DNA of 64,000 nt, taken from NCBI RefSeq assembly GCF_003663825.1, contig NZ_RCCC01000001.1, forward strand, positions 442,501 to 506,500, in the 5' to 3' direction. A model generated the notes under the pieces. The model was not told where the DNA came from. It saw only the letters and a list, made by a program, of their open reading frames with translations, and did no database searches. The stretch is from Acidovorax sp. 106. Its GTDB lineage: Bacteria; Pseudomonadota; Gammaproteobacteria; Burkholderiales; Burkholderiaceae_C. Positions 131-63,682 of this stretch are shown piece by piece (the stretch's first letter is position 1; each line of letters begins with the position of its first letter). The position numbers and the translations under genes are program-made.

Positions 131-200
131 ACTTTGGGGTCTTTGCAGTTTGCAGCAATTACTCTTTTCAGAACAACTACTGCATTTAGCGCAGCCTTAA

Positions 201-230
201 ATTGTACAACAGTTTTTAACCCGCCGACAA
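201..230 (-). promoter_or_regulatory. rRNA operon promoter, distal
   Basis: Minus-strand -35 TTGTCG (225-230), 18-bp spacer, -10 TACAAT (201-206). The spacer carries the same TTAAAAACTGT segment as the promoter at 101-130, and the two are exactly 100 bp apart, so they look like a duplicated promoter pair feeding the same transcript. Confidence 0.7.
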
Positions 231-254
231 CAAAAACCTAACTTTCTGCAACCC

Positions 255-294
255 CTTCGCTACCCCAACAATCTAAACCGTCTCAGTAGCGAAG
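255..294 (-). other. inverted repeat between phosphoribosyltransferase gene and rRNA promoters
   Basis: CTTCGCTAC at 255-263 pairs perfectly with GTAGCGAAG at 286-294 around a 22-base loop. No T-run follows, so it is not a canonical terminator. A TATGAT-like -10 (301-306, minus strand) lies immediately upstream but lacks a good -35. Function unknown. Confidence 0.4.
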
Positions 295-329
295 CCCTCG
301 ATCATAGCACTACTTTGGCCCCCCAAACC

Positions 330-857: not shown

Positions 858-870
858 CTTGCTCCAAGCG

Positions 871-2259
<1,389 letters not shown>

Positions 2260-2274
2260 TCAATTTTCAAAATC

Positions 2275-3423: not shown

Positions 3424-3563
3424 GTAGAAAGAGGGATGCTGTTAAAACCGCAATTCTACCGGGTGAGCGAACAACGGCCAGCAATCCCTACAGGTTCATG
3501 CCAATCAACATGCAAAAACTTCAAACAGATCGACTCGGAAGAATCATGCGGTCACGCAAGCAA

Positions 3564-4469: not shown

Positions 4470-4478
4470 AAAACTCTC

Positions 4479-5813: not shown

Positions 5814-5866
5814 GCGCAAAATCTCTTGGTCTCTATAGGTAACGATCAGAACAGCATTGTGCCCAA

Positions 5867-7027
5867 TCAAGCCGAAAGCTCTGAAAATTCAGCCCCATCA
5901 GCTGGGGACATCTCTGCGGCTTCACGCGAAACGATCTCAGAGAGTATTTCCCTCAGCGCACCGACACCCATCCCCGTCAAGGCACTTACAAAAACCCGCG
6001 TGCACAAAATGCCATTCAAGTCGTAAGTATCTTTTGACACAAGAGGATGAGACGGCTCAGCCAAAGCATCAGACTTGTTGAATACTAAAATCTGAGGAAT
6101 TCGGTCCGCGCCAATTTCGGTCAACACACGCTGCACTTGCTGAATTTGCTCTGGAAAAGCAGGGTTGGCCGCATCCACAACATGGAGCAACAAATCAGCA
6201 TCCACAGCCTCTTGCAAGGTAGCCTGAAACGCATCGACAAGTCCGTGCGGAAGATCACGAATGAATCCAACCGTATCAGACAAAGAGATTGAGCGGCCAG
6301 CGTCAGCAAGGTACAGCTGCCGCGTTGTGGTGTCCAAGGTCGCAAACAGCTGATCAGCAGCATAGGCACGCGCCTTGACCAAGGCATTGAACAAAGTCGA
6401 TTTGCCTGCATTCGTGTAACCAACCAGTGAGATAGTGAACGCGTCACGCCGCTCACGCTGCTTGCGCTGCGTAGAACGCTGGCGCTTGACCTTGAGCAAC
6501 CGCTCCTTGGTCCGCTTGATAGCATCACCAATCATGCGCCGGTCGAGTTCAATCTGCGTTTCCCCAGGGCCTCCACGCGTACCGATACCACCGCGCTGCC
6601 GCTCCAAGTGGGACCACCTGCGCACTAAACGCGTACTCAAATACTGCAGTTTGGCAAGTTCCACCTGCAACTTGCCTTCGTGACTGCGGGCACGTTGCGC
6701 AAAAATCTCCAGAATGAGCAGAGTACGGTCGTTGACAGGAAGCTCCAGGTGCCGCTCAAGGTTGCGCTGCTGCGCAGGACTTAGAGACTGGTCAAAGAGT
6801 ACCTCGACGGCGCCGTGCATTTGCGCCAGCATTCTGATCTCATCAGCCTTGCCACTACCAACGAACAAGGCGGCATCCGGAGCCCTGCGCTTGCAGGTCA
6901 CGCGCGCAACAGGGTTCAACCCCGCCGTTTGAGCAAGCAAACCTAACTCTTCCAGCGCAGCATCAAAATGAGGAAGCCCCATATCAACACCAACCAAGAT
7001 GACTGGGGGTGTCGTTTGGGGCTTCAT
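5867..7027 (-). CDS. hflX: ribosome-associated GTPase HflX
   Basis: 386 residues. N-terminal HflX domain with the Gly-rich GGIGTRGGPGETQIE (146-160) and a helical linker, then a GTPase domain with G1 GYTNAGKS (203-210), G3 DTVG (251-254) and G4 NKSD. The family splits stalled or hibernating 70S ribosomes. The hfq-hflX-hflK-hflC order is a classic conserved block. ATG start at 7027. Confidence 0.96.
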   Translation of the reverse strand: MKPQTTPPVILVGVDMGLPHFDAALEELGLLAQTAGLNPVARVTCKRRAPDAALFVGSGKADEIRMLAQMHGAVEVLFDQSLSPAQQRNLERHLELPVNDRTLLILEIFAQRARSHEGKLQVELAKLQYLSTRLVRRWSHLERQRGGIGTRGGPGETQIELDRRMIGDAIKRTKERLLKVKRQRSTQRKQRERRDAFTISLVGYTNAGKSTLFNALVKARAYAADQLFATLDTTTRQLYLADAGRSISLSDTVGFIRDLPHGLVDAFQATLQEAVDADLLLHVVDAANPAFPEQIQQVQRVLTEIGADRIPQILVFNKSDALAEPSHPLVSKDTYDLNGILCTRVFVSALTGMGVGALREILSEIVSREAAEMSPADGAEFSELSA

Positions 7028-7103
7028 TGTGCAGACCTCGGCACGCTCTTAATGAGATATGCCACAAGCAAAAGAGAGTTTAGCGCAGTGATGAGTGTGA
7101 GGC

Positions 7104-7355
7104 CTAAGCACCAGCGTCCGTGTCCGATGACTCTGCGGTCGAAAAACTCACAGCACGCCCAGGAACGATCGTGGAGATAGCGTGCTTGTAGACCATCTGG
7201 GTGACAGTGTTACGCAGCAAAACGACGTACTGATCAAAAGACTCAATTTGACCTTGTAACTTGATTCCATTCACCAAGTAAATGGACACTGGAACGTGTT
7301 CACGCCGCAGTGCATTCAGGAATGGATCTTGAAGAAGTTGACCTTTATTGCTCAC
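7104..7355 (-). CDS. hfq: RNA chaperone Hfq
   Basis: 83 residues with Sm1 and Sm2 strands, including the invariant YKHAIS in Sm2 and an N-terminal QDPFLNALR, so the hexamer sRNA-binding faces should be intact. It promotes sRNA-mRNA pairing. The start is taken as GTG at 7355 because translation then begins SNKGQLLQ as in orthologues and GGAG lies seven bases upstream; the frame is open further to 7397 without family resemblance. Short acidic C-terminal tail (SSDTDAGA). Lies between der and hflX. Confidence 0.96.
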
Positions 7356-7511
7356 GATATGCTCCGTGTTCAAAATGTTGTTGTAAAGCAGCACCATACC
7401 ACACCAAGGATAGCTGCCAGGTGAAATGATGCATTGCCCTTTGGGCTCGACGGATAGTCAACCCGCCGAACCATTGGTTCAAGCGCTTTTCAAACCAACT
7501 AAGCCGCCAAG

Positions 7512-8858
7512 CTACGAGCTCTCGCCGTCCTTGAAGGGATTGTGAGACGTTTTCATCTCGATTCTCAGTGGCGTACCGACCAGTTCAAACTCTTTGCGAA
7601 AACGACCTTCCAGAAACCGCTTATACGCCGCCGTCACATGTTCCAGTGAGTTACCGTGGATCACGATCACCGGTGGGTTCATACCACCCTGGTGGGCATA
7701 ACGCAGCTTGGGCCTGAACATGCCTGATCGCTGAGGGCTTTGAAACTGCACGGCCTCCAACAGCAACCTCGTCAAGACAGGCGTAGGCATTTTGCAGTTT
7801 GCTGCCTTGTGGGCCTGCGCAATGGATGTCCACAACGGACCAAGGCCCTGCCTCTTCTTCGCAGAGATGTAGTGCAAAGATGCAAATTTCAAAAATGACA
7901 GCCGAGACTCGATAGAACGCTCAAGCAGTTGACGCTGGTAATCATCCACAGCATCCCATTTGTTCACGGCTATCACAACAGCCCGCCCACTCTCAAGAAT
8001 GTACCCAGCGATGTGAGCATCTTGATCTGTCACTCCCTGGGTCGCATCCAAGAGCAGCAAGACGACGTTGGAGGACTCAATCGCCTGCAGGGTCTTGACC
8101 ACTGAAAATTTTTCGATCGCCTCAAAGACCTGCCCCTTGCGTCGCAAGCCCGCCGTATCAATCAACTCAAATTTTTGACCATTTTTCTCAAACGGCACAG
8201 AAATCGCGTCTCGCGTGGTGCCCGGCATGTCAAAAGCGACCAAGCGCTCCTCACCCAGCCAAGTATTGATCAGCGTCGATTTCCCGACATTAGGCCGCCC
8301 TGCTACCGCCAGCTTGATGACATCAGAGGGAGTTTCCGAAACTGCCTCATCATCAAGGTCGGGAATGTTGAGAAGAGCAAACGCGGCATCGAAGATGCCG
8401 CGAATCCCTTGGCCATGGGCCGCAGATGCAGGGACCACAGCCCCCAAACCCAACTCATAGAACTCTGCAAGCTGAACCCCCTCCACCATACCTTCGGCCT
8501 TGTTAGCCACAAGCAGGCAGGGCTTACTCAGGCGTCGCAGGTATTTGGCAATGTCATGGTCTTGTGCGGAAACACCAGCGCGAGCATCCACGATGAACAA
8601 AACCACATCAGCTTCGGCAACCGCTTGCTGGGTCTGTTTGGCCATCTCGCGGTAAATTCCCGCAGAAGCATCTGGCTCGAATCCACCAGTGTCCACCACG
8701 ATGTACTCGTGCTTGCCCTGCCGCCCATTGCCATAGTGACGATCACGCGTGAGACCCGCAAAATCAGCAACGATGGCGTCCCGCGATTTGGTTAAACGGT
8801 TGAAAAGTGTTGACTTCCCAACATTTGGGCGCCCGACAAGGGCAATAACTGGCTTCAT
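7512..8858 (-). CDS. der: ribosome biogenesis GTPase Der (EngA)
   Basis: 448 residues with two tandem GTPase domains, the hallmark of the family: G1 GRPNVGKS at 9-16 and again at 187-194, DTGG at 56-59, NKAE at 119-122 and NKWD in the second domain, then a C-terminal KH-like domain. Needed for 50S assembly. Preceded by bamB at 17 bases spacing, so probably one transcript. ATG start at 8858. Confidence 0.97.
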
Positions 8859-8874
8859 TCAATACCTATCACTA

Positions 8875-10044
8875 TCAATCTGGACGGAAGCCGTACACGC
8901 CGCCACTTCGCGTTACAACAACCAAAGTATCTGCAGCAACCACTGGGGCCGCAACCATGCCTGAGGAATCAGTCATGACGCGATTCAAAGGAGCACCATC
9001 GGCGCGCGACAAAAAGTGGATCCAGCCGGACTCATCACCCAAGACCACAGACCGCCCCAAGACCAAGGGTGCTGTCAACTTTCGCAACCTGAGTCGATCA
9101 GAAGACCACAAGCGTGTTCCATCATCGCGGCGCCAAGCAATCACATGTCCATTGCTCTCAGTCCCATAGATGGCTTCAGAGTCCCCGTGAACACCTTCAG
9201 AGCCACTGGCCTGCAGAGACCAAACAACATTGGCCCGATCTCGGACCACATTCACACAGCCCACAGAGGCTTGGAATGCACGTACACAAACCGAATCCCC
9301 CACACGGCTGACGCGCCCCACCAACTCTACCAAACGCTCAACGTCATTGATTCCACGTGGACTGGCCAAGGGAACCTCCCAACGGACCGTCCCGGTGTCA
9401 GGGTTCAATCCGACCAGCCGACCTGACATACCAACTACCAAGGTATCACCCACAGCAGCTATCACGCCACCTTGCCGTAAGACCAAGGCTTCGCCTCCGG
9501 ACCGTGCCTGGTTCCAGAGCTTTCGCCCCGTATTCAAATCAAACGCGGAAACCGAACGATCTGCGGCCAAGACGAATACGCGGCCACCAGCAACCAAAGG
9601 TGCCGTAAATACCTGCGAAGCAAGACTTTGACGCCACGCCTCTTTACCCTGGTCCAGCACGATCAGAGCGTTGGATCGAGAGACCACAGCCGTATATCGA
9701 GCGTCACTACCAACGCCTGCCGACAAAGGCTCCCCAAGACTTGCACGCCACAAATCACCACCGGTTCGGGCATCAATCGCAACCAGCCCCCCTTCGGACG
9801 AAGCAATCGTCACCCGATAGTCCTGAACACGGACATCCAACGCTGCGCCTGACGAAGCGCCAACCTTGGAACTCCAAGCCTGACGGACACCCAGAACCGG
9901 GATGTTTTCCCCTAAATCAGGGGCGACAGCTTTGCTTCCACCCCACATGGAGCAGCCGCTCAAAGCGATTGCGATCACCAGAGGAGCAACTCGCGTACAC
10001 CATCTGGACGGACGAAGTGAAGATATGGAAGCTATTGATTTCAT
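8875..10044 (-). CDS. bamB: outer membrane assembly lipoprotein BamB
   Basis: 389 residues. Lipoprotein signal with lipobox LSGC (Cys31), then repeated PQQ-like beta-propeller blades (motifs such as GGLVAIDARTGGDLW and VSAFDLNTGRKLW). Scaffold lipoprotein of the BAM complex on the periplasmic face of the outer membrane. Its ATG overlaps the yfgM TGA (ATGA at 10041-10044), indicating translational coupling. Confidence 0.93.
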   Translation of the reverse strand: MKSIASISSLRPSRWCTRVAPLVIAIALSGCSMWGGSKAVAPDLGENIPVLGVRQAWSSKVGASSGAALDVRVQDYRVTIASSEGGLVAIDARTGGDLWRASLGEPLSAGVGSDARYTAVVSRSNALIVLDQGKEAWRQSLASQVFTAPLVAGGRVFVLAADRSVSAFDLNTGRKLWNQARSGGEALVLRQGGVIAAVGDTLVVGMSGRLVGLNPDTGTVRWEVPLASPRGINDVERLVELVGRVSRVGDSVCVRAFQASVGCVNVVRDRANVVWSLQASGSEGVHGDSEAIYGTESNGHVIAWRRDDGTRLWSSDRLRLRKLTAPLVLGRSVVLGDESGWIHFLSRADGAPLNRVMTDSSGMVAAPVVAADTLVVVTRSGGVYGFRPD

Positions 10045-10727
10045 TTCTTTACATCCGGCGAAGCAACCGCACCAGAGGACGTGCTTTGAGGATCGACACC
10101 CAGCCCATTCAGTTTGACTTCAACCATGCGCCGGTATTCAATGGTTTCATCCAGTGCCTTGTAGGCCCGACCGTACTCAACCACAGCATCTGACCGCCGA
10201 TCAAGCAACATCAGAACATCACCTTTGCGGTCGGCTGCGATGCCCTCAAACTCAGGTGGAAAACTACCCTGCAATTGCTGCAAAGCCGCATCAAACTGCT
10301 TTTGCTCCATCAGCACACTGGACAACCGCAGCTTGGCAATGGCCTTGTACCCTGCGTCCGTAGATTGCTCGGCCACCCAGCCAAGCGCGGATTTAGCAGC
10401 ATCCAGGTCGCCAGCTTCCTGCATCGTCTTTGCCAAAGCAAAACCCGCCATATCGGCCTGTGGCGTACCAGAGTACTTCGCCTTGATATCGGTAAACGCC
10501 TGCTCCACGCGTGATTGATCTTTTGCTTGAGCGGCAACCTCCACGGCATCCAACAAAGCAGCCGCTTGAGAGGCTTGTCGATTTTGCCAATATTGGTACC
10601 CATTCCACGCCGCCAGCCCCCCCATCACCACCAGCAAGACTGCCGAAATAGGTGTACCCCAGGTATTCCAGAAATGCTTGAGCTGATCAAGCTGTTCTTG
10701 TTCTTCCAGATCTAAGTGATTTGCCAT
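10041..10727 (-). CDS. YfgM-like tetratricopeptide membrane protein
   Basis: 228 residues. Short cytosolic N-terminus (MANHLDLEEQEQLDQLKHFW), one membrane segment (about 25-45), then TPR-like helices in the periplasm. The family associates with SecYEG and periplasmic chaperones. The hisS-yfgM-bamB-der order matches E. coli and most betaproteobacteria, which supports the assignment despite low sequence conservation. Confidence 0.85.
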   Translation of the reverse strand: MANHLDLEEQEQLDQLKHFWNTWGTPISAVLLVVMGGLAAWNGYQYWQNRQASQAAALLDAVEVAAQAKDQSRVEQAFTDIKAKYSGTPQADMAGFALAKTMQEAGDLDAAKSALGWVAEQSTDAGYKAIAKLRLSSVLMEQKQFDAALQQLQGSFPPEFEGIAADRKGDVLMLLDRRSDAVVEYGRAYKALDETIEYRRMVEVKLNGLGVDPQSTSSGAVASPDVKK

Positions 10728-10744
10728 GAATGCTTTACGTCAGT

Positions 10745-12076
10745 TCAGTTGGTTGGGCGCGATTGTAGGTTGCCAGCCCAAAGAGAAACGGTTTCCAATG
10801 ATTGCTCGACCTGGGCCCCCACCCCATCGCGAAGTGACTTGATGGATACGACGCCACGCGTTAGCTCTTCATCACCAAAAACGAGCGCATACGCAGCGCC
10901 ACTGCCATCGGCCCGCTTGAATTGCGATTTCATGCTACCCATCGAGCCATCAGCAGATGCCGATGCGTGCATCTGAATAGAGAGACCCAAAGCACGGAGT
11001 TGCTCTATCGTCCTCATTGCCACAGGGAGGGACGAGATACTGGGAACCACGGCATACACATCGGGAGCTAGTGAAATAAAGGCCTTTTCCTGCTCTTTCA
11101 ACAACTCCAACACACGCTCAACCCCTAAAGCCCAGCCTACGGCTGGTGCGGCCTTCCCGCCCACTTGCTCCATCAAATAGTCATAGCGCCCGCCACCACA
11201 GATAGTGCCCTGAGACCCAAGCTGGTCCGTCACAAACTCAAAAACAGTGAGGTTGTAATAGTCCATGCCACGGACCAGCCTCGGATTGAGGGTCCATGCC
11301 ACACCATTCGCATCCAAAATCGCCTTGACCCTGTCAAAGTGGGCCAGTGACTCTGGACCCAAGAAATCGATCAATCTCGGCGCCGCATTCACAATGGCCT
11401 GCAGCCCTGGGTTCTTAGTGTCCAGGATGCGCAGCGGATTGCTATGGAGTCGGCGACGGGCCTCTTCGTCAAGGGATTCGCGGTGTTGCTCCAAGTACGC
11501 AATCAACGCGGCCCGGTGGGCTTGCCGCTCCTGAGGCTGACCCAAGCTATTCAACTCCAGACGCACGCCTTGCAGCCCCAGCTCGCGCCACAAAGAATTG
11601 GCCAGAAGTATCAGCTCCGCATCCACCTCTGCCCCTGGAAAGCCAAGCGCTTCGGCACCGATCTGGTGAAACTGGCGATACCTTCCGCGCTGCGGCCGTT
11701 CGTGGCGAAACATAGGCCCCATGTAATAAAGCCGTTTCCCACCGTCGTAGAGCATTGAATTTTCAGAGACAGCCCGAACAACGCCAGCAGTGGCTTCTGG
11801 GCGCAAGCTCAAATGCTCACCGTTGAGACGATCTTCAAACGAATACATCTCTTTTTCCACGATATCCGTCACCTCGCCCAAGCCGCGCACAAATAACGCC
11901 GTCGGCTCCACAATGGGAGTGCGAATATTGCGGTAGGAGTAGCGATCCATCAGCGCGCGAACCTTACCCTCCAGCCACTCCCAACGGGCGGAGTCTGGGG
12001 GCAAGATATCGTTCATCCCCTTCACCGAGGTCACTTTTTCCGCCTTTGAAGCGGTTACGACTTTGTCTGTGCTCAC
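10745..12076 (-). CDS. hisS: histidyl-tRNA synthetase
   Basis: 443 residues, class II aminoacyl-tRNA synthetase. Visible are LRPEAT (91-96), motif 2 [16 protein letters not shown] (123-138), the HisA-type motif [14 protein letters not shown], motif 3 [12 protein letters not shown] and a C-terminal anticodon-binding domain. The open frame begins at GTG (12076) with a weak ribosome site; the family match begins around KGMNDILP at residues 19-26, so the N-terminal ten residues are uncertain. Confidence 0.96.
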
Positions 12077-12143
12077 AGCTTTGCTTTTCTAAAAATCTGA
12101 AATTCCAAGGGTGCGAAAAAACGCTCACCTCATCGAGAGATGA

Positions 12144-13421
12144 CTAGGCAGCACCCACGCCGCCGAATCGGCGTTCAATGTAGCTTTCAACGATCTGGTG
12201 GAATTCGGCGGCAATGTTCTCGCCACGCAAAGTCAGGGCCTTTTCTCCATCGATAAACACAGGGGCCGCAGGCGACTCACCCGTGCCAGGCAAACTGATA
12301 CCGATATCCGCGTGCTTGCTCTCCCCAGGCCCATTCACGATGCAGCCCATGACAGCTACACGCAGTCCCTCAACGCCGGGGTACTTGACACGCCACACCG
12401 GCATCTGTGAGCGCAAGAAGTCATCAATCTGCTTGGCAAGCTCTTGAAAGGTCGTGCTGGTGGTTCTCCCACAGCCAGGGCAAGCCGTCACACTAGGGAC
12501 AAATACGCGCAAACCCAGGGCCTGCAAAATCTCGGAAGCAACCACGACTTCCTGATTCCGAGACTCACCAGGCTGGGGCGTCAGGGACACGCGAATCGTG
12601 TCGCCTATCCCTTCTTGCAAAAGCACCGAAAGAGCTGCAGCAGACGCCACAGTGCCTTTGGTTCCCATACCTGCCTCTGTCAGCCCCAGGTGCAATGCGT
12701 AGTCACACCGGCGAGCCAACTCACGGTACACACCGATGAGGTCCTGCACACCGCTCACCTTGCACGACAAAATGATCTGGTTGCCGTCCATCCCCATTTC
12801 CTCTGCGCGGTGCGCAGATTCAATGGCCGAGGAAATGAGCGCCTCGTACATAACTTGACGGGCATCCCAAGGCTGGCTACGGCGGCTATTCACATCCATC
12901 AAACTCGCCAGTAGCTCCTGATCCAGACTCCCCCAGTTGACGCCGATGCGAATAGGCTTATTCCAACGCATCGCAGCTTCAATCATCTGACCAAACTGGC
13001 GATCACGCTTCTCACCCTTGCCTACATTTCCAGGGTTGATCCGGTACTTAGACAAAGCCTCTGCGCAAGCAGGAAACTGCGTGAGGAGTGTGTGCCCGTT
13101 GTAGTGAAAATCACCAACAAGCGGAACGTTCTCACCCATACGATCCAGTTGCTCACGAATGTACGGAACGGCCGCTGCGGCTTCGGGCGTGTTGACCGTG
13201 ATACGTACAAACTCAGAGCCAGCCTGGGCAAGCTCTTTGACTTGAATCGCGGTGCCGATAGCGTCGACGGTATCAGTGTTGGTCATCGACTGGACGCGTA
13301 CCAAAGCGCCACCACCCACCGTGACGACACGATCACCCCAAACAACTCGCGCTTGGCGAGATTTACGCACCGCAGGAGATACCAACGGAATGGGGCCAGA
13401 AACGTTTGTGAAGTTGCTCAC
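12144..13421 (-). CDS. ispG: 4-hydroxy-3-methylbut-2-en-1-yl diphosphate synthase IspG
   Basis: 425 residues. Penultimate enzyme of the MEP isoprenoid pathway, a 4Fe-4S protein reducing methylerythritol cyclodiphosphate. TIM-barrel N-terminal part, then cluster ligands Cys314 and Cys317 (CPGCGRT) and Cys360 ([10 protein letters not shown]). Start GTG at 13421, overlapping the rodZ TAG by one base and with GAGG about eight bases upstream, so coupled to rodZ. Confidence 0.96.
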
Positions 13422-14332
13422 TATTTCACCTCGAAGCGCGCGACGTTCTCACGCGACACAGCATTCAGCTCCAGGGGCTTGCCACGAACAAAGACGTCGG
13501 TCACATCGGCACGCCCCACAACCACGCTCAAGGGCAAAACCCCCGACACTGGTGCGGCGTCGCCTGACGCTAACTTTTTCTCGAAAACCACGCGCCCTGT
13601 TGCATCACGCACTTGAACCCAAGAGTCCCCACGCGCGCGCAACATCAACAATGCAGCAGACGTATCAGCGATCGCAGGCAACGCAGCAGAAGCGGGTTGA
13701 GCGACGGCAGGAGAAGGGGCTACGGGCACTAAGGCAGCCGTACTGCTGGCAGCAGGCGCTGGCTCTGCAGCCACCGGCGGCTGAACAACGGCAACGATCT
13801 CCTCAGTCTTTGAAGCCGACGCCTCTTGGCCCGAGGTGGGAACAGCTGCGCTCCCCACCAAGGAGAGTGGTCTGGAATTCCAAGGCTGAAAGCCAGCAGG
13901 CCAATAAAAAACGGCAGCAGCTCCAATCAAAAGCACGAACACACCGAACATCAACCACGACGAATGCCTCGAACCACCGTTGGAAACAAAAGTCTTGCCT
14001 GCCACACTTTTCACGGGTGTGTTGATATCGGATCGCTCAGGAATCAAGCGCGGATTTTTTGACTGAGGCAGAAGAGACAAGACTTGCGCAGGATCCAGCT
14101 TGAGTGTCCGGCATACACTGGAAGCCAAAGCCCGCATAAATACGGTATCGGGGAGCAACTCAAGCCGATTGGACTCCAACGCTTCCAGCTTACTGACAGG
14201 CACCTTCAGAGCCACTGCCAACGCCTCAATGTGGACACCCGCAGCTTCACGGGCACTGCGCAAAATTTCACCCGCAGTGGGCTGAGTTGCACCGTCTTGA
14301 GCCGATGCCAGGGCAACCGTGGACTCACTCAT
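13421..14332 (-). CDS. RodZ-like cytoskeletal helix-turn-helix membrane protein
   Basis: 303 residues. N-terminal HTH_25 domain ([19 protein letters not shown]...), Ser/Lys linker, one membrane segment ([19 protein letters not shown]), an Ala/Pro-rich periplasmic linker and a C-terminal DUF4115 beta domain ([19 protein letters not shown]). RodZ links MreB to the cell-wall elongation machinery. ATG at 14332 with GGAG six bases upstream is preferred over GTG at 14356. The start lies a few bases inside the pilW 3' end. Conserved position between pilW and ispG. Confidence 0.9.
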
Positions 14333-15158
14333 TGAAGGCTCCACGCTGGTACGCACCCATTTCAGCAGACTCTGGAAAGCGCTTACGCAGTTGGTCAGCC
14401 AACTGAAGCATTGCTACGTTGTCGCCCAGCGCCTTCTCGACCTTAATTCCCAACCAAAGGGACTCGGAGTTGGCCATGCCGCTGTTGTTCAATCGCCGAA
14501 TGTAAAACTGCGCACGCGTCAGTTCTTGGCGGCGAAACAGCAGCGAAGCAAGGTGATAACTCACCACCGGATTAGCGGCATCCAGTTGGTATGACTTGAG
14601 CAAGGACTGCTCGGCATCCTCTAACTTTCCAGAACTCGACTGGCACAGCCCCTTGCCCATCAAGGTTTTGCTTCTGGCTACGTAAGCAGGGTTCGCCAAC
14701 GCTCTATCGAACTGCTGATCTGCTTCTGCATACTTTCTTTGCTGACAAAGCAACCAGCCATAGTTGTGCAGCAGATTCGAGTCCGTAGAACGCATGGAAA
14801 TCGCACGACGGAAGCTGTCCTCCGCTTGGGCTACATCATTCAACTGCATGTAAATCAACCCACGCATATTGAGGGCATCTACATAGGTGGGATCGGTTGC
14901 GAGTGCCTGCTTGACCTCATCCAACGCGACGCTGGCCTGTCCGTTCTCAAAATACTTGGCCGCCAACTCAAGCCGGATGCGGGCACGCCGACGCACCTCT
15001 GACTCGTCAGAAGGCGTCACCACACTGGAATTGGTGTCAGAGGCCTGCACACCACCATTTGTCGCGCAACCAGGAAGCAGAAAACCCGTGCTTGCTACAC
15101 CCAATACCCAAAGCGCCCCACGGCAATAGATTCGAATACGCCCAACCAATCTCACCAT
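14325..15158 (-). CDS. pilW: type IV pilus biogenesis lipoprotein PilW/PilF
   Basis: 277 residues. Lipoprotein signal with lipobox LPGC, then at least four TPR units (AKYFENGQASVALDEVKQAL, YVDALNMRGLIYMQLND and so on). In Neisseria and Pseudomonas it is the pilotin for secretin PilQ. Conserved place between rlmN and rodZ. ATG start at 15158. No other pilus genes are in the window. Confidence 0.9.
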   Translation of the reverse strand: MVRLVGRIRIYCRGALWVLGVASTGFLLPGCATNGGVQASDTNSSVVTPSDESEVRRRARIRLELAAKYFENGQASVALDEVKQALATDPTYVDALNMRGLIYMQLNDVAQAEDSFRRAISMRSTDSNLLHNYGWLLCQQRKYAEADQQFDRALANPAYVARSKTLMGKGLCQSSSGKLEDAEQSLLKSYQLDAANPVVSYHLASLLFRRQELTRAQFYIRRLNNSGMANSESLWLGIKVEKALGDNVAMLQLADQLRKRFPESAEMGAYQRGAFNE

Positions 15159-15184
15159 ACAACGCCCCTCTTTGTGTCAGTGAA

Positions 15185-16306
15185 TCAAGCTATCGGCTTC
15201 AGCACAATGGTGCGTTGTTTAGCCATGCGCTCTGCGGCGCGCGTTCTGTCCTTAACATCTCCAGCCAACTGCCCGCAAGCCGCATCGATATCATCACCGC
15301 GCGTTTTGCGAACTGTCGTGACAATACCCGCATCGCTGAGCAATTTGGCAAAAGCGAGCACCTGATTCTGCGGCGATCGCATCAAACCCGATGCCGGAAA
15401 TGGATTAAATGGAATCAGATTGAACTTGCATCGAACACCGCGACCACGCGCGGGTTGAACCAGCTCAATCAACTGCCGTGCATGCTCAGCTTGGTCATTG
15501 ACGCCATCCAGCATGCAATATTCGAAGGTGATGAAATCACGTGGAGCATGCTCCAAATAACGCTGACAGGCATCCAGCAATTCATGGATGGGATATTTGC
15601 GATTGAGCGGGACCAAGTTGTCACGCAGGGCATCATTCGGGGCATGCAGCGAAACCGCCAGCGCCACAGGGCAGTCTTGGGCCAACCGATCCATCATCGG
15701 AACAACGCCTGATGTAGAAACCGTCACCCGCCGCCTGGACAGCCCATACCCATGGTCGTCCAGCATGACGCGCAAAGCCGGAACCAACGCAGAGTAGTTC
15801 TGCAAGGGCTCACCCATGCCCATCATCACAACATTGGAAATCACCCGGTCAGAGGTATTCAACCGGGCACGCAGCGCATGCTCGGCAAACCACAGTTGCG
15901 CAACGATCTCACCCGAAGTGAGATTGCGACTGAAACCTTGGTGACCCGTGGAGCAAAAGCGACACCCCACGGCACAACCTGCCTGGGATGAAATGCACAA
16001 GGTGCCTCGATCATCCTCGGGGATAAAGACCGACTCCACCGCGTTTCCATCGCCCACGTCAAAAAGCCATTTGACGGTGCCATCCGCAGACACATGCTCA
16101 CTGATGACGGGTAACGCTTCGATGTGCGCGCAGCCTTTGAGCTTTTCTCTCAATGCCTTGGCCAAATCGCTCATGGCATCGAAATCGCTGGCCCCGCGCT
16201 GGTGAATCCAACGAAATAACTGGGTCGCGCGAAAACGCTTTTCGCCCAATCGCTCACAGAAAGCGATCAGCGCATCCAGGTCAAATTCAAGGAGGTTGGT
16301 GGTCAT
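15185..16306 (-). CDS. rlmN: 23S rRNA A2503 / tRNA A37 methyltransferase RlmN
   Basis: 373 residues, radical-SAM dual-specificity RNA methyltransferase. Radical SAM cysteines Cys111, Cys115, Cys118 (CAVGCRFC) and the C-terminal catalytic Cys in DAACGQL are present. ATG at 16306 is chosen from MTTNLLEFD and AAGG eight bases upstream; an upstream in-frame ATG at 16375 lacks family similarity. Followed by pilW after 26 bases. Confidence 0.96.
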
Positions 16307-32508: not shown

Positions 32509-34863
<2,355 letters not shown>

Positions 34864-34920
34864 AGCGCTGCACAGGGACCGTCCGCCAGCCGGGTGGCCC
34901 TGCCCCAGTCCCTGGGCTCA

Positions 34921-34955
34921 AGCCCGCCGCCTTTGAACAGGCTGGCGGGCTTTTT
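34921..34955 (+). terminator. rho-independent terminator of rpoD
   Basis: AGCCCGCC (34921-34928) pairs with GGCGGGCT (34944-34951), followed by TTTT. It is located 58 bases after the rpoD stop. Confidence 0.85.
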
Positions 34956-34983
34956 CATTGGAGGGGCGATTGATGAGAGAAAT

Positions 34984-35032
34984 AGCCCCTAGCGCAATCC
35001 AGATAAGCGCTAGAAGCTATATTTTTAATAGC
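34984..35032 (-). repeat. double-hairpin intergenic element, copy 3
   Basis: Minus strand: GCTATTAAAAATATAGC, then TTCTAGCGCTTATCTGGATT, then GCGCTAGGGGCT. Both hairpins are kept (GCTAT/ATAGC and CTAGCGC/GCGCTAG). It lies in the convergent gap between rpoD and the flavoprotein gene. Confidence 0.85.
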
Positions 35033-35083
35033 AAATTGCCATATGAGGCCACTGCGCCTGCGCTGAGGGCCTGCTCAACCCCC

Positions 35084-36484
35084 TTAATACACGTCGCGCC
35101 GGTAGCGCCCTTCGCGCAGTAAGTGGTCCAGTGCGTCTGCCCCCAAAATCTGGCGCAGTGCGCTGTCCACTGCCTGGGCCATGCCCTGCAGGCTGCCGCA
35201 CACGTACACCGCCGCGCCTTGCGCCACCCAGGCGCGCACGGTCTCGGCCTCGGCCGCCAGCAGGTGCTGCACGTACACGCGGGTGGGCTGGTCGCGCGAG
35301 AAGGCCACATCCAGCCGCTGCAGGGTGCCTTGCCGGCGCCAGCCTTCCAGCTCGGCCTGGTGGTGAAAGTCGTACGCGGCATTGCGCTCGCCAAACAGCA
35401 GCCAGTTGGGCCCGGCCCCCACGGCCGCCCGGGCGCGCAGGTGGGCGCGCAGCCCGGCCAGGCCGGTGCCGTTGCCAATCAAAATCAAGGGGCGCCGGGC
35501 ATTGCCCTCCAGCCGGAAGTTGCTGTGCGCACGCAGCCGCAGGGGTATGGCCGCGCCCACAGCAGCACCCTGCGTGAGCCAGCCCGAGGCCACGCCGAGC
35601 GAGCCATCGCCACGCACCGCCTGGCGCACCAGCAGATGGATGCTGCCGTCGCTGGCGATAGAGGCCACCGAATACTCGCGTGGGTGATCGGGGTCTTGCG
35701 GGGTGCGCACCTGCACCAGGTCGCCCGACTCCCACACCCCGGCCGTGCCTGCCAGGCCTGAGGGGGGCGCTAGTTCAAGGTGAAACACCGCCCCGCCTGC
35801 GCTGCCGGGGTTCAGGTGCGTGCGCCGGGCCAGCACCCAGTTGGCAAACTCGGGCGCCTGCCAGGCGGGCATATCGCTGACATGGGCCACCTGCCCCAGG
35901 TGGTGCTGCCACTGCTGCAGCGCCTCTACATCGCCGTTGTCCATCTCCACGGTGTCAAACAGGCGGGTAGCGCCGCAGCGTTGCAGCCAGGCATCTACCT
36001 GGCGCCCAAAGCCGCAAAAGTGGGTGTACTGCCGGTCGCCCAGCGCCAGCAGGCCGTAGCGCAAGTGCGCCAGCTGCGGTGCGCTGGCCAGGATGTGGCT
36101 GGCAAAGGCGGCGGCGTGGTCGGGCGGGTCGCCCTCGCCGCAAGTGCTGACCACCCACAGCGCGAACTGGGCCTGGGCCAGCGCCTCGGGGGTGAGCTGG
36201 TCCACGGGGCACAGTTGCACGGGCTCTCCGGCAGCGTGCAGCAGCCGGGCGGTTTCCTCTGCCAGCTCTTGGGCCTGGCCAGTCTGGCTGGCGTACACCA
36301 CCAGCAGGGCATGGAGCCCCTCGCGTGCAGCAGCCAGTGACGCGGCTTGTGCCTGGGCTGCCCGCAGCTTGCGGCGCTCGCGCCACCAAACGGCTGCGCA
36401 CAGGACGGCATACAGGGCCACCAGGCCTGCGGCGGCCATCCAGCGCGCAGCGCCCACCATCGCCATTTCACCCAAGAGCCCCAT
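35084..36484 (-). CDS. membrane-anchored flavodoxin/NADPH reductase (sulfite reductase flavoprotein-like)
   Basis: 466 residues. One N-terminal membrane segment (about 14-34), a flavodoxin domain (60-185; YASQTGQAQELAEETA, STCGEGDP, LALGDRQYTHFCGFG), FAD-binding REYS (269-272) and a NADPH domain with GNGTGLAG (337-344) and a CGSLQGMA block. This is the CysJ/cytochrome P450 reductase architecture tethered to the inner membrane, with domains predicted cytosolic. Last gene of the Fur-box cluster; it would feed electrons from NADPH to the membrane partner. Start ATG 36484, 17 bases after apbE; ATG 36466 possible. Confidence 0.85.
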   Translation of the reverse strand: MGLLGEMAMVGAARWMAAAGLVALYAVLCAAVWWRERRKLRAAQAQAASLAAAREGLHALLVVYASQTGQAQELAEETARLLHAAGEPVQLCPVDQLTPEALAQAQFALWVVSTCGEGDPPDHAAAFASHILASAPQLAHLRYGLLALGDRQYTHFCGFGRQVDAWLQRCGATRLFDTVEMDNGDVEALQQWQHHLGQVAHVSDMPAWQAPEFANWVLARRTHLNPGSAGGAVFHLELAPPSGLAGTAGVWESGDLVQVRTPQDPDHPREYSVASIASDGSIHLLVRQAVRGDGSLGVASGWLTQGAAVGAAIPLRLRAHSNFRLEGNARRPLILIGNGTGLAGLRAHLRARAAVGAGPNWLLFGERNAAYDFHHQAELEGWRRQGTLQRLDVAFSRDQPTRVYVQHLLAAEAETVRAWVAQGAAVYVCGSLQGMAQAVDSALRQILGADALDHLLREGRYRRDVY

Positions 36485-36501
36485 GGGGTTTTCCCAAAAA
36501 A

Positions 36502-37668
36502 TCAACCCACCCGAGCGGGCAGGTCCAGCTGTTCCAAAGCGGCACTGGTGTGCACCACCAGCCCCGCATCCGTGTGCTCGCACAGCAGTGCGGCAATGCC
36601 ATGGTGCTGTGCAAAGGCCAGCCCCTCGTGCGGCCCCAGCACCGTGAGCACGGTGGCCAGGGCATCGGCCTGCATGCATTCAGCATGCAGCACCGTGACG
36701 CTGCTGAGCCGGTGCAGCACCGGCTCGCCGGTGCGCGGGTCCAGCGTGTGCGAGTAGCGGCGCCCGCCCAGGTCAAACGCGTGCCAGTGGTCCCCCGAGG
36801 TGGCCACGGCCATGTCGCGCAGCGGAAGTACGCGGGGCGCACGGGAGGCAGGGGTGCGCTGGCGTGAGCTGGCCGCATAGGCCCCGCCCACGCCATCGAT
36901 CACGCCTGCGATCTGCACCCGCCAGGGCAGGCCATCGGGGCGCAGGCCGCTGGCGCGCAGCTCGCCGCCCACCTCCACCAAAAAATCGGTAAACCCCAGG
37001 CGCTGCAGGGTGCGCGCCACCAGGTCCACCCCAAAGCCTTTGGCAATGCCGCTCAAATCCAGCTGCGCACCGCCGGGCTGCAGCACGCGGCGCTCGGCCG
37101 CGCTCAGTTGCAGCCGCTCAAAGCCCACACGGGCCCGGGCAGCCTGCAACCGCTGCGGGTGGGGCAACTGGGCACGGTGGTCTGCCAAAGGGTTGGCACG
37201 CGGGCCAAAGCCCCAGGCATCCACCAGCGGGCCCACGGTGGGGTCCCACGCGCCCTGGCTGGCACGCGACCAGTGCAGCGCACACGCCATCACTTCCATG
37301 AACTCGGGCGATATCACCTGCCACACGCCCGCCTCCGCGCGGTTGAAGCGGCTGATTTCCGAGTCAGCCTCCCAGTGGCTCATCTGCTGCACCACGGTGT
37401 CCAGCGCCTGCTGCACCGCAGTCTGCACGGGCTGTAGCGGCGCAAACCCCGGGTTGCCCAGGCGCACCGACCAGGTGGTGCCCATGGTGGCGCCCGCCAG
37501 GGTGTGCAGCGCGGCCGGATCGCGCGCGCGCAGCACTGGGGCCGGGCCGGTGGCGTAGCCAGCGGCTGCAGGGGCCAAAGGCGCGGCGGGCAAACCACCG
37601 GGCTGGCAACCGGCCCCATAGCGCACGCGGATGCGCGGGGTCTGGGGCGTGGTGTGCTGGGCGTACAA
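36502..37668 (-). CDS. apbE: FAD:protein FMN transferase (ApbE)
   Basis: 388 residues in the longest frame. ApbE core from MGTTWSVRL (62) with DLSGIAKGF (204-212), the VGGELRASG block, SGDH (291-294), HTLDPRTG (307-314) and DALATVLTVLG. The family transfers FMN from FAD onto Thr/Ser of target proteins outside the cytosol. The first codon is TTG, no ATG lies before residue 62, and residues 1-61 contain no hydrophobic signal; family-like sequence (ALHTLAGATMGTTW) begins before residue 62, so the true start is upstream and uncertain. The likely client is the neighbouring DUF2271 protein. Confidence 0.85.
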   Translation of the reverse strand: MYAQHTTPQTPRIRVRYGAGCQPGGLPAAPLAPAAAGYATGPAPVLRARDPAALHTLAGATMGTTWSVRLGNPGFAPLQPVQTAVQQALDTVVQQMSHWEADSEISRFNRAEAGVWQVISPEFMEVMACALHWSRASQGAWDPTVGPLVDAWGFGPRANPLADHRAQLPHPQRLQAARARVGFERLQLSAAERRVLQPGGAQLDLSGIAKGFGVDLVARTLQRLGFTDFLVEVGGELRASGLRPDGLPWRVQIAGVIDGVGGAYAASSRQRTPASRAPRVLPLRDMAVATSGDHWHAFDLGGRRYSHTLDPRTGEPVLHRLSSVTVLHAECMQADALATVLTVLGPHEGLAFAQHHGIAALLCEHTDAGLVVHTSAALEQLDLPARVG

Positions 37669-37682
37669 GGTGTGCGTCGCGC

Positions 37683-38510
37683 TCAGGGCAACACTTCCAG
37701 GGTGCCGACGTACGACAGGCGGCGCTCCTTGGCCTGGGGCACCGAGGTCTTGTCGTCCTTCACATCGGCATCCACCCAGTACATGCCAGCCGCTGGCCAG
37801 GTGATGCTGAACTGGCCTTTCGCATCGGTCGTGGCCTTGATCTCGCCGAGCTTGTCGCGGTAGCGCGAGCTGCCCGCTACCAAGGCCACCTCCACGCCGA
37901 CTGCGGGCTTGCCATCCACATGGAAGGCAAAGGTGGCTTTTTCGCCCTGGGCCAGGTCGTTGGGGTGCGTCACGGGCACCAGCTCCAGCCCCTTACCGCT
38001 GGCCTTGACGGCGCTGGGTTTGCCCACGGTCACATAGGTTTCCACCCGCCCGGCGGATTGGATGACCTTCAAGTCTTGCGCATCGGCAGGCACTTCGGCA
38101 GCAAACTTTTCGGGGGTGCCACGCCAGCGCTTGGGCTGCCCGGCCTTGTCCTTGTAGGTGGCCATCAGGCCGCCGTTGAGCACCGCCAGGCGGTAGGTGC
38201 CGGGCTGGGTCAGGTTCAGGTCAAACACGCTGCGCAACTTGCCTTTGTGGGCGTTTTCAGGGGCCAGCGTGGAACCGTCGGGCGCCGTCACCACCAGGTT
38301 GTCCAAACCCAGCGGCACGTGGTTGAAGAAGAACAGGTCGTTGGACACCGCAGCGTCCACGGTGATCCATTCCGCTTTGGACAACACGGTGCTCGAAGGC
38401 AGCAACCACACGTTATGGGCCTGGGCGGCCGACGCGGCACCCAGCAACAACGCCACACCAGCGGCCAAATGCGCCAACCGGGCGCGTGCAGGAACAGGAA
38501 ATTTCATCAA
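37683..38510 (-). CDS. periplasmic DUF4198 protein
   Basis: 275 residues. Clear signal peptide ending AQA (29-31), so the mature protein would begin HNVWLLP. Beta-rich DUF4198 domain, a family related to nickel/cobalt-uptake periplasmic domains, with a C-terminal immunoglobulin-like part (TTDAKGQFSITWPAAGMYWVDADV). Likely a metal-handling or structural partner in the periplasm. Middle gene of the Fur-box cluster. Start ATG 38510 or 38507. Confidence 0.8.
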   Translation of the reverse strand: MMKFPVPARARLAHLAAGVALLLGAASAAQAHNVWLLPSSTVLSKAEWITVDAAVSNDLFFFNHVPLGLDNLVVTAPDGSTLAPENAHKGKLRSVFDLNLTQPGTYRLAVLNGGLMATYKDKAGQPKRWRGTPEKFAAEVPADAQDLKVIQSAGRVETYVTVGKPSAVKASGKGLELVPVTHPNDLAQGEKATFAFHVDGKPAVGVEVALVAGSSRYRDKLGEIKATTDAKGQFSITWPAAGMYWVDADVKDDKTSVPQAKERRLSYVGTLEVLP

Positions 38511-38564
38511 TGACTCCAGTTGAGCGAAGAGAACGAATCAAAAAAGGGGATGTGCCGGAGCGGC

Positions 38565-39101
38565 TCAGGGCTTCAGCTCTAGGGTGATCTCGCCGAGCTC
38601 GCTGCTGCCTGCTGCGCGCAGTTGCTGCGCCTTGGCCGCAGGCCAGGTGAAGGGCACCGACACCACCTCGCGCCCGCCCACCTCGCGGGCGGCTTCCACC
38701 ACCAGCTTGTAGTTGCCTGCGGGCAAGGCGGCCAGCGGGTTCTTGCCTTCAGTAAATTGCAGCTGGTGCTTGCCTGCGGGGCGTGTGGGGCTGGTCACGC
38801 CGTCGATGGGCATCTCCAGATCGCGCCCGGCGCGGCGCCACCACTGGCGCATATCCTTGAGCCACTTGGTGCCTGTGCCCTCGGCGTTCTTGAGCTTGAC
38901 GTCGTACCAGACCGACAGGGTGGACGCCACGGTGTTGTCCGCGCGCTCGAGCCACACGGCCACATAGGGGCGGTGGTACTCGGCCACGTCCAGGCGGGGG
39001 ATTTCCACCCCCACATTCAGCCCGGCTGCAAAGGCAGGGGCCCCAAGGCACGCGCCCAGGGCCACGGTGTAGCGCAGTTTGGATGGCGAGGGTTTCAGCA
39101 T
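38565..39101 (-). CDS. periplasmic DUF2271 protein, possible flavinylated redox carrier
   Basis: 178 residues. Signal peptide (TVALGACLGAPAFAA), then a single DUF2271 beta domain with WYDVKLKNAEGTGTKWLKDMRQWWRR. Residues 100-106 read DGVTSPT, resembling the D-x-x-(S/T)-(G/S/A)-x-(S/T) pattern of ApbE flavinylation sites. The adjacent apbE gene makes it the natural client. Function is not established; see findings. 24 bases separate it from the PepSY-like gene upstream. Confidence 0.8.
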   Translation of the reverse strand: MLKPSPSKLRYTVALGACLGAPAFAAGLNVGVEIPRLDVAEYHRPYVAVWLERADNTVASTLSVWYDVKLKNAEGTGTKWLKDMRQWWRRAGRDLEMPIDGVTSPTRPAGKHQLQFTEGKNPLAALPAGNYKLVVEAAREVGGREVVSVPFTWPAAKAQQLRAAGSSELGEITLELKP

Positions 39102-39125
39102 AGGCAGGCTTTCTTTCGTGAAAGT

Positions 39126-39758
39126 TCAGTGGATAAACAAGAGCGCCAGCAGCGCAGGCAGCACCAGGCCCAGCCCCACCATGGGCCAAGTCCAGGGGCG
39201 GTTGCCCGCGTGCATCTTCAAAATGAACAGGCCCGTGAAAGAGAACACCAGGCAGGCCACGGCAAATAGGTCGATGAACCAGTTCCAGGCTGCGCCGGTG
39301 TTGCGGCCCTTGTGCAGGTCATTGAGGTAGGCAATCCAGCCCCGGTCGGTGTTTTCGTACTCGGCCTCGCCGTCTTGCAGCCCCAGGCGCAGCCAGGCAT
39401 CTCCGCCGGGGCGCGGTAAGGAGACATAGACCTCGTCGTCGGCCCACTCGGCCTCGCGCCCGGCCAGCGAGACACCCCACTGCACGTGGGCCCATTGCGC
39501 CAGCTCGGGCGGCACGGCAGAGCGCTTACCCGCACTCTGGGCCCGCTCTGACAGCACCTGCTGCAACGCCTGCGGGGCCTGCGCCTGGGCCCGCACCACG
39601 CGGGGCTTGGATTCGATCTGCCCGGCATGGTTGAGCGTGATGCCCGTCACCGCAAACAACAGCATGCCCAGCAGGCACAGGGCCGAGCTAACCCAGTGCC
39701 ACTCGTGCAGGGTTTTGAGCCAGAAGGAGCGCCGCCGGTGGTCTTGTAACTTGGTCAT
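39126..39758 (-). CDS. PepSY-associated membrane protein
   Basis: 210 residues. Three membrane segments (about 24-42, 162-181, 191-208) around a periplasmic PepSY-like domain (55-150). Several histidines lie near the membrane faces (His18, His21, His44, His149, His183), a pattern seen in PepSY proteins proposed to carry heme or electrons. First gene after the Fur box, so it heads the operon with DUF2271, DUF4198, ApbE and flavoreductase. ATG 39758 chosen; an upstream frame to 39812 looks non-coding. Confidence 0.82.
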   Translation of the reverse strand: MTKLQDHRRRSFWLKTLHEWHWVSSALCLLGMLLFAVTGITLNHAGQIESKPRVVRAQAQAPQALQQVLSERAQSAGKRSAVPPELAQWAHVQWGVSLAGREAEWADDEVYVSLPRPGGDAWLRLGLQDGEAEYENTDRGWIAYLNDLHKGRNTGAAWNWFIDLFAVACLVFSFTGLFILKMHAGNRPWTWPMVGLGLVLPALLALLFIH

Positions 39759-40170
39759 GCCTGGGGGGAAAAGAGCGCCGGGCCACCCAAACCCACCCTG
39801 AGAATGCGCCACCCGAACCCGGCATTGTAATTTTCAAAATGACAATCATTCTCGTTTGCATGAACTTTACATAAACGAATTGCGGTATCTCCAATCCATC
39901 CGCCGCCACCGCAACAGGGATAACCCCTACAACCCAGACAGCAATTTGACAGCTTTGCAAGTCACGATTACATCCATTACAAAAACTTCCAGACGCGTGC
40001 CCGCTTTTCGGGCTGCATGACCTGGAGTGGAGCCCACCGCATCCCCACCCTGAGGCAAGGGGCACAAAAAAGCAGGGCCCACGGACACCCAACCGTTCGT
40101 TGTTCCATCGTTTGTTGTCTGGGTGCAGGCTGGGAGCCCGCACCTGCTTCAGCCCACTACCCAAGGTTCC
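39759..40170. promoter_or_regulatory. divergent intergenic region with Fur box
   Basis: 412 bp between the PepSY-like gene (left) and a Bug-type gene (right). It contains the Fur box at 39835-39853, a minus-strand -10-like TACAAT (39824-39829), and a plus-strand TTGACA (39946-39951) with only a weak -10 downstream. No gene seen. Confidence 0.6.
39835..39853 (-). promoter_or_regulatory. Fur box of the PepSY/DUF2271/DUF4198/ApbE operon
   Basis: CAAAATGACAATCATTCTC matches 15 of 19 positions of the consensus GATAATGATAATCATTATC. It sits 77 bases upstream of the first gene's ATG and next to a possible -10, so Fur with iron should repress the cluster. Confidence 0.8.
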
Positions 40171-41187
40171 ATGACCATGCAACGCAGACAGATCCTGGCG
40201 CGCAGCGCCGCAATGGCCGCCCTACTGACCCCGCTGGCACCTGCCGCCCTGGCCCAGGCCACCACACCGCGCCCCGGCGCGCCCGCCCCCAAGGCTGCCA
40301 AGGTGGCGGGCACGCTGCGCATCGTCATCCCGGCCAACCCCGGCGGCGGCTGGGACCAGACGGGCCGCGCCCTGGGCGCCGCCCTCAAGGCCGTGGGCGC
40401 TGCAGACCAGGTGGAGTTTGAGAACATTGGCGGCAAGGGCGGCACCATCGGCCTGGCCAAATACGCTGAGAAGTACGGCAACGACGCCAACACCCTGCTG
40501 ATGGGCGGCATGGTGATGGTGGGCGCTGTGGCCCTGCAAAAGCCCGCCGTGGACATGGGGCACATCCAGCCCATTGCCCGACTGACCAGCGACTACCTGG
40601 TCACAGCGGTGCCGGCATCCTCCCCCATCAAGAGCGGCAAGGACCTGGCCGACGCCATGCGCGGTGACCTGCCTGCCCTGCCCGTGGCCGGTGGCTCCGC
40701 CGGTGGCGTAGACCACATCTACGCTGGCGTGCTGGCGCGCGCGGCCAAGGCAAAACCTGAAGCCTTGGTGTACCGCCCCTTTGCCAGCGGCACCGAGGTG
40801 GTGGAGTCCCTGCTCAAAGGCGATGCTGCCGTGGGCATCTCGGGCTACAGCGAGTTCAGCGATGCCCTGGCAGCGGGCAAACTGCGGGCCATCGGCGTAT
40901 CGGCGCGGCGCAGTGCGTTTGGCATCCCGGCCTTCAAAGACCAGGGCATTGACGCCGTGATGGCCAACTGGCGCGGCGTGTTCACCGGCAAGGGCGTGAG
41001 CCCCGCCCGCACGGCCGAACTGCTGGCAGCGGTGGAGCAAGCCACCCACCACGAAAGCTGGCTGCAAACGCTCAAGCAAAACCGCTGGGAAGCCTCCTGG
41101 CTGGCTGGCAAGGACCTGACCGAGTTCATGGAACTGGACCTGACCACCGCACGCGTGATGGTGTACCTGCTCAAGCTCAAGGCCTGA
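40171..41187 (+). CDS. Bug/TctC-type periplasmic substrate-binding protein
   Basis: 338 residues. Signal peptide ending ALAQA, then the tripartite tricarboxylate transporter receptor fold (LRIVIPANPGGGWDQTGRALG, GGKGGTIGLAKYAE, VYRPFASGTEVVESLLKGD). Binds a carboxylate in the periplasm; no TctA/TctB membrane genes are nearby, so it is an orphan of the kind abundant in this family. AAGG four bases before the ATG at 40171. Confidence 0.88.
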   Translation: MTMQRRQILARSAAMAALLTPLAPAALAQATTPRPGAPAPKAAKVAGTLRIVIPANPGGGWDQTGRALGAALKAVGAADQVEFENIGGKGGTIGLAKYAEKYGNDANTLLMGGMVMVGAVALQKPAVDMGHIQPIARLTSDYLVTAVPASSPIKSGKDLADAMRGDLPALPVAGGSAGGVDHIYAGVLARAAKAKPEALVYRPFASGTEVVESLLKGDAAVGISGYSEFSDALAAGKLRAIGVSARRSAFGIPAFKDQGIDAVMANWRGVFTGKGVSPARTAELLAAVEQATHHESWLQTLKQNRWEASWLAGKDLTEFMELDLTTARVMVYLLKLKA

Positions 41188-63652: not shown

Positions 63653-63682
63653 ATATTACATGAGAATGATTCTTAATAACAA
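63653..63682 (-). promoter_or_regulatory. heme operon promoter
   Basis: Minus strand -35 TTGTTA (63677-63682), 18-bp spacer, -10 TAATAT (63653-63658). The Fur box lies across the spacer. Confidence 0.65.
63662..63680 (-). promoter_or_regulatory. Fur box of the heme uptake operon
   Basis: Minus strand GTTATTAAGAATCATTCTC matches 14 of 19 consensus positions and overlaps the promoter core, so iron-bound Fur would block transcription of the receptor and hmuSTUV. Confidence 0.8.

Follow-up and report, generated by a model that had tools for sequence, protein, structure and literature searches.

A putative iron-starvation flavin relay operon of Acidovorax sp. 106 with a leaderless ApbE and a shifted acceptor motif in its DUF2271 protein

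Flavinylation systems of the PepSY-like kind have been described from 3220 gene clusters, 2833 of them with DUF2271 and 1500 with DUF4198, and one DUF2271 protein of another species was reported to be flavinylated by its ApbE at an [ST]GA[ST] site, iron reduction being proposed (Meheust et al., eLife 2021, PMC8238504). In a later study, which models membrane cytochromes, the motif is termed “[S/T]GA[S/T]-like” (mSystems 2024, PMC11334425). A Caulobacter operon with the gene order considered here was reported as Fur-bound and iron-repressed, with strong derepression (BMC Genomics 2013, PMC3751524), and its transposon mutants as having reduced fitness in EDTA (J Bacteriol 2025, PMC12004947); DUF2271/DUF4198 genes of Alteromonas respond to iron as well (PMC7190382). 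The present work concerns five closely spaced genes, for a PepSY-type membrane protein, DUF2271, DUF4198, ApbE and a flavodoxin-type reductase, located at 39758–35084 on the minus strand of a 64,000-nucleotide stretch of Acidovorax sp. 106 DNA (the window; positions 442501–506500 of the genome, a single contig of 4.88 Mb). A first-pass annotation of this stretch had presented the cluster as a candidate flavin redox system for iron without a defined function. The redox proposal is broadly supported by the present analysis; the absence of a defined function is an outdated statement, because reports on relatives already cover regulation by Fur, a fitness effect in EDTA and the flavinylation of DUF2271.

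As judged from its gene content, the cluster is a member of the published PepSY-like kind under the working definition of 2021 (PMC8238504): a PF16357 or PF03929 protein is present, ApbE and DUF2271 are both present, with the leader that at least one of them has to carry provided by DUF2271, and a linked NAD(P)H-binding module, a common and not obligatory element, is found too. At the same time, its acceptor code and, probably, its place of flavinylation differ from what textbooks would lead one to expect. The features that appear to be new are a leaderless cluster ApbE with a leader-bearing presumed substrate and a shifted acceptor motif covarying with an ApbE loop; neither leaderless ApbE in such clusters nor motif–loop covariation was found in print in searches of the open-access literature. 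The best explanation, in which we place reasonable though far from complete confidence, is that the five genes form an iron-starvation operon building a trans-envelope electron relay, with the DUF2271 protein being loaded with FMN in the cytosol by the cluster ApbE. Sequence directly shows the gene content, the Fur-like site, the catalytic residues, the missing ApbE leader, the non-canonical motif and the covariation; heme and flavin loading, the direction of electron flow, ferric iron as acceptor and the site of flavinylation are inferred.

Acceptor motif of DUF2271 and the active-site loop of ApbE

Relatives were collected by searching for DUF2271 in overlapping sets of 300 genomes of the order, 398 of the phylum and 150 of the family, with 36, 65 and 30 genomes over the Pfam cut-off, respectively; 124 stretches were fetched, which makes 125 loci with the window. 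Loci with PepSY, DUF2271 and DUF4198, the DUF2271 match exceeding 150 bits, are referred to as type I (79/125), and within the stretch ApbE was matched in 59 of them and a reductase in 64. The second layout has DUF2271 near ApbE and a reductase with more membrane helices (31 ApbEs, including those of three loci with PepSY and without DUF4198, L156, L160 and L196), and the third consists of ApbE fused to DUF2271 (8 cases). The gene order PepSY–DUF2271–DUF4198–ApbE–reductase, the conservation of which had been proposed as a check in the first-pass annotation, was found in 75 of the 80 named relatives and is the commonest order among the 124 loci and the window. The fetched and the named loci overlap (e.g., L090/L253, L096/L304 and L131/L276), so leader counts from the two sets, given below, are not independent.

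The DUF2271 gene (38565–39101, minus strand, Pfam E 3e-52) encodes a protein with a Sec-type leader, which is the presumed FMN carrier. Its acceptor motif, DGVTSPT (residues 100–106; 38784–38804, minus strand), with Thr106 as the presumed FMN site, reads TSPT and differs from the canonical Dxx[ST]GA[ST]. The form [ST]GA[ST] occurs in none of the five window proteins, and by its motif DUF2271 is not a canonical ApbE substrate. DUF4198, the PepSY protein and the reductase were ruled out as ApbE targets, as none of them contains Dxx[ST]xx[ST]. Asp100 and the acceptor Thr are conserved in at least 97% of the 79 loci; the middle GA is often replaced by SP, QP, GP or SA in the relatives and in 120 close homologues, and the recurrence of TSPT together with other non-GA forms ruled it out as a single-genome oddity. 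Moreover, Pro at motif position 3 was found in 20 of the 62 clusters with their own ApbE versus 0 of the 22 without it (Fisher p 0.001, kinship ignored).

The cluster ApbE (36502–37668, minus strand, TTG start, PF02424 match with Pfam E 3e-83) keeps Ser291, His307 and Asp335, equal to the catalytic Ser, His and Asp. Its loop TSGDHWHAF (36775–36801, minus strand) carries His294 where solved ApbEs carry Tyr, and this loop co-varies with the DUF2271 motif. The covariation was evaluated over 1249 columns of all five proteins, scored against the GA or non-GA state of the motif in 129 clusters. The set started from 138 pairs, with fusions, DUF2271 below 150 bits and cluster ApbE below 300 bits (e.g., the split gene of L190) left out; collapse at 97% identity or more gave 133 pairs, 129 of which have the PepSY and DUF4198 proteins used for the tree. 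The top column outside the motif was the ApbE residue at catalytic Ser+3 (phi 0.72), followed by its ApbE neighbour (0.61), and Tyr was present at Ser+3 in 51 of 70 GA clusters versus 1 of 59 non-GA clusters. None of 20000 simulations on the PepSY and DUF4198 tree reached the observed link (p 5e-5), and the outcome was the same on a tree from ApbE minus the loop with all 138 pairs. Within lineages (138 pairs including duplicates, groups set by hand from kinship labels and organism names), Tyr at Ser+3 occurred in 7/7 GA versus 1/9 non-GA clusters of the phylum-level group, in 8/8 versus 0/23 of a mostly Lysobacterales group and in 37/59 versus 1/32 of the remaining loci. The link is not strict, since there are GA-bearing clusters without Tyr, many of them from Variovorax. 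In the proposed relay, the active-site loop of ApbE would have been altered jointly with the acceptor motif.

Leader of the cluster ApbE and the place of flavinylation

The window ApbE has no recognisable export leader, that is, neither a signal peptide nor a lipobox, by a home-made rule in which in-frame upstream codons are read up to 90 residues or to the previous stop. In its strict form (a core without Pro, Asn, Gln or charge; cut-off 1.7), leader-like ApbEs amounted to 2/59 in the type I clusters, 3/78 in the named type I loci and 1/31 in the second layout, where L113 stays leader-like, compared with 8/8 ApbE–DUF2271 fusions and 28/46 control ApbEs not beside DUF2271 (37/46 by a looser rule), these 46 containing partial matches such as L232 in two pieces and L250–L252. 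DUF2271 itself was scored as leader-like in only 56 of the 79 type I loci by the strict rule, which therefore undercounts; the looser rule gave 103/125 at a cut-off of 1.8 and 109/125 at 1.6. Six of the 59 type I ApbEs were counted by the looser rule, four of them (L085, L088, L119 and L139) having VLIPVAL-type N-termini judged to be non-leaders. The strict rule dropped these cases but also controls, and both counts are therefore reported. A short N-terminal RVLIP before the ApbE domain recurs in many leaderless ApbEs (e.g., L097, L304 and L294), with RVRY or similar in the group of the window.

For an ApbE without a recognisable leader, periplasmic flavinylation is not simply to be assumed, and the earlier picture of an ApbE that attaches FMN to exported proteins does not stand as written for this cluster. 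Cytosolic ApbEs named in a 2025 review (PMC12052999) have targets that are either cytosolic or fused. Here, the leaderless cluster ApbE would most likely attach FMN in the cytosol, the site of FAD, before the export of DUF2271; with loading before Sec export, a periplasmic flavin relay would need no FAD export. A more general proposal, made tentatively and with slightly less than even confidence, is that the DUF2271 precursor receives its FMN ahead of Sec export from an ApbE dedicated to it in the cytosol, and that such enzyme–substrate pairs, freed from the shared GA code, may have evolved private motifs (TSPT, TQPT, TGPT and SSAT) read by the loop beside the catalytic Ser. If periplasmic flavoproteins of a large class were loaded in this way, the Sec machinery would need to accept substrates bearing a bulky covalent flavin. 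The motif–loop covariation also offers direct access to the specificity of ApbE and could yield mutually independent flavin-tagging pairs, and scans for [ST]GA[ST] and an exported ApbE can overlook such systems.

Flavinylation of DUF2271 in the periplasm, either by the cluster ApbE exported through an unrecognised route or by another exported ApbE, would be the alternative. The genome holds one DUF2271, two ApbEs and one FMN_bind protein; the latter is NosR-like by eye, with the motif SGAT (DAISGAT), and the second ApbE, which has a Tat-like leader and would be the candidate enzyme here, is located in the same nos region (L208 187–10898; NosR-, NosZ-, NosD-, NosF-, NosY- and NosL-like genes by eye). 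Homologous clusters consistently lacking ApbE would have counted against the first-pass annotation, and such clusters were encountered in part: of the 84 clusters that combine DUF2271 with PepSY or DUF4198, 22 show no ApbE in the fetched stretch. At least one ApbE match was found elsewhere in each of the 24 genomes of these 22 clusters and two further ApbE-less loci, and of 30 of these other ApbE loci that were read, 28 are leader-like by the looser rule, which also speaks for a separate exported enzyme. However, among 32 manually chosen type I genomes there are 18 in which no ApbE other than the leaderless one of the cluster was found (G158, with locus L085, would count as leader-bearing under the looser rule); a single ApbE is present in 19 of the 32, the ApbE of one (G207) having a leader. 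Covariation of the motif with the loop of the cluster ApbE would be unexpected if another enzyme acted on DUF2271. Additionally, RR is present in 3 of the 56 type I DUF2271 leaders that were scored and a Tat pattern in none, by which the Tat route was ruled out for this protein. Overall, periplasmic flavinylation seems rather unlikely.

Proposed iron link, electron carriers and metal handling

A Fur-box-like operator, CAAAATGACAATCATTCTC (39835–39853, plus strand), is located upstream of the PepSY gene, 76 bases from its ATG, and matches 15 of 19 positions of the classical Fur consensus. The Fur box noticed earlier at the operon head was borne out, being the sole site of at least 15/19 on both strands of the 64-kb window; 60 dinucleotide shuffles of its own 300-base upstream region gave a best score of 12/19. 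A second Fur-like site, GTTATTAAGAATCATTCTC (63662–63680, minus strand), scores 14/19. A Fur homologue is present in the genome, and from the site and this homologue the operon is probably a candidate for Fur regulation. By this consensus, a Fur-like site is not general in the relatives, as 24 of 79 upstream regions exceed all 60 of their own shuffles. No sigma-70-like promoter was found in 34850–40200.

The electron path would start at the anchored reductase (35084–36484, minus strand), which has one N-terminal membrane helix, a flavodoxin domain and a CysJ/P450-reductase-like FAD/NADPH domain (Flavodoxin_1 E 5e-28 and NAD_binding_1 E 4e-9, scanned as 35084–36511). Its start is probably the ATG at 36484, the initial open reading frame (to 36679) thus being overlong. 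The motifs PREYSVAS (35660–35683) and SRDQPTRVYVQ (35267–35299), both on the minus strand, were located in this gene, and alignment to CysJ-like chains gave NADPH-type residues. A fused PepSY–reductase of the second-layout type was ruled out, the window reductase having one helix and no PepSY domain. The reductase would accept electrons from cytosolic NADPH and pass them to FAD and then to FMN. The PepSY_TM_like_2 protein (39126–39758, minus strand, Pfam E 1e-85), a putative heme electron carrier with three long predicted helices, would carry them over the membrane through heme. Its His21 and His149 are invariant in the 79 loci, window included. The protein ends in a histidine (LLFIH), His210, a column that is His in 90% of these loci and a possible heme or metal ligand. 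The secreted DUF2271 would then carry electrons on FMN bound to Thr106, with ferric iron or its chelates as acceptors in the periplasm. This outward path from NADPH through FAD/FMN and heme to a periplasmic flavin, together with the Fur link, had been outlined in the first-pass annotation and agrees with the published accounts (PMC8238504, PMC3751524, PMC12004947).

The secreted DUF4198 protein (37683–38507, minus strand, Pfam E 5e-56) has His as its predicted mature N-terminus, after AQA (cleavage judged by eye; codon at 38415–38417, minus strand), and His occupies this column in 79/79 type I loci. A DUF4198 relative binds Ni through its N-terminal His (Nat Commun 2025, PMC12537917), in agreement with the metal-handling role assigned earlier to this gene; in the proposed relay, DUF4198 would bind metal through this residue and handle the product or the substrate. 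Alternatively, the relay could act on a different metal or chelate, its chief role being to handle nickel, zinc or copper through DUF4198 and not to reduce ferric iron. We regard this as unlikely, given that the corresponding Caulobacter operon is Fur-bound and iron-responsive (PMC3751524), that the Alteromonas DUF2271/DUF4198 genes are iron-responsive (PMC7190382), and that a Fur-like site stands upstream of the window operon. A decayed acceptor site, with no flavin covalently bound to DUF2271 and with metal reduction by the heme protein PepSY alone, as reported for VciB, seems very improbable: TSPT lacks GA, and replacing only Gly by Ala or only Ala by Val approximately halved flavinylation of one tested substrate (PMC12052999), but Asp100 and the acceptor Thr are conserved as described above, and xPT or xSAT forms occur beside ApbE in many lineages with the ApbE loop shifting alongside.

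The five closely spaced minus-strand genes were confirmed by Pfam matches on the translated reading frames, and their coordinates leave intergenic gaps of 24, 57, 14 and 17 bases. The neighbouring genes, for DnaG and RpoD at one end of the operon and for a TctC-type protein at the opposite end, are not iron genes; a FeoB_N match (E 1e-51) is present in the genome. A terminator-like hairpin of 9 pairs followed by a T-rich run (36504–36525, minus strand), the first of 11 terminator-like sites in 34850–40200 (3.9 in shuffles), lies between apbE and the reductase gene and could reduce expression of the latter relative to the first four genes. Positions 1–16000 of the window have a GC content of 51–57%, against 60–70% elsewhere in it, and this low GC makes an acquired stretch possible.

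Comparison with described systems

The PepSY protein resembles the ferric-siderophore reductase FoxB (PDB 7abw), whose type is marked by a four-helix di-heme core, by Pfam PepSY_TM (E 1e-10, partial profile) and by conserved histidines; its model gave no Foldseek match to structures at E 0.001, and the DUF4198, DUF2271 and PepSY sequences gave no match below E 0.4 to solved structures. The window DUF4198 shares 16% identity with IsDUF4198 (PDB 9gcb), with a fold match, no sequence match and no residue-level alignment; a residue equal to IsDUF4198 His18 was not assignable. With Zcp (PDB 9mhm and related entries), whose entry title names mutated histidines 29, 31 and 142, it shares 17% identity; no paper linking Zcp with DUF4198 turned up in the literature search.

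The ApbE of the Klebsiella fumarate reductase is without a signal peptide, like that of the window, but its substrate is cytosolic (PMC12052999), whereas the presumed window substrate has a Sec-type leader. With the PepSY-like flavinylation systems, as far as they are described in PMC8238504, the window shares the PepSY-like protein, DUF2271, DUF4198, ApbE, the NAD(P)H-binding module and the Fur iron link; it differs from them in its leaderless ApbE, its TSPT acceptor and a one-helix reductase without a fused PepSY. Another close counterpart is the operon CC3059–3063 (CCNA_03155–03159) of Caulobacter crescentus, in which all five families recur in unchanged order behind a Fur-bound promoter (PMC3751524). 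That operon is alphaproteobacterial, and its regulation and fitness effects have been measured, whereas the window is known from sequence; the likeness in motif and leader rests on the relative from Caulobacter segnis (L326), which combines a TSPT motif and a leaderless ApbE, as does the window.

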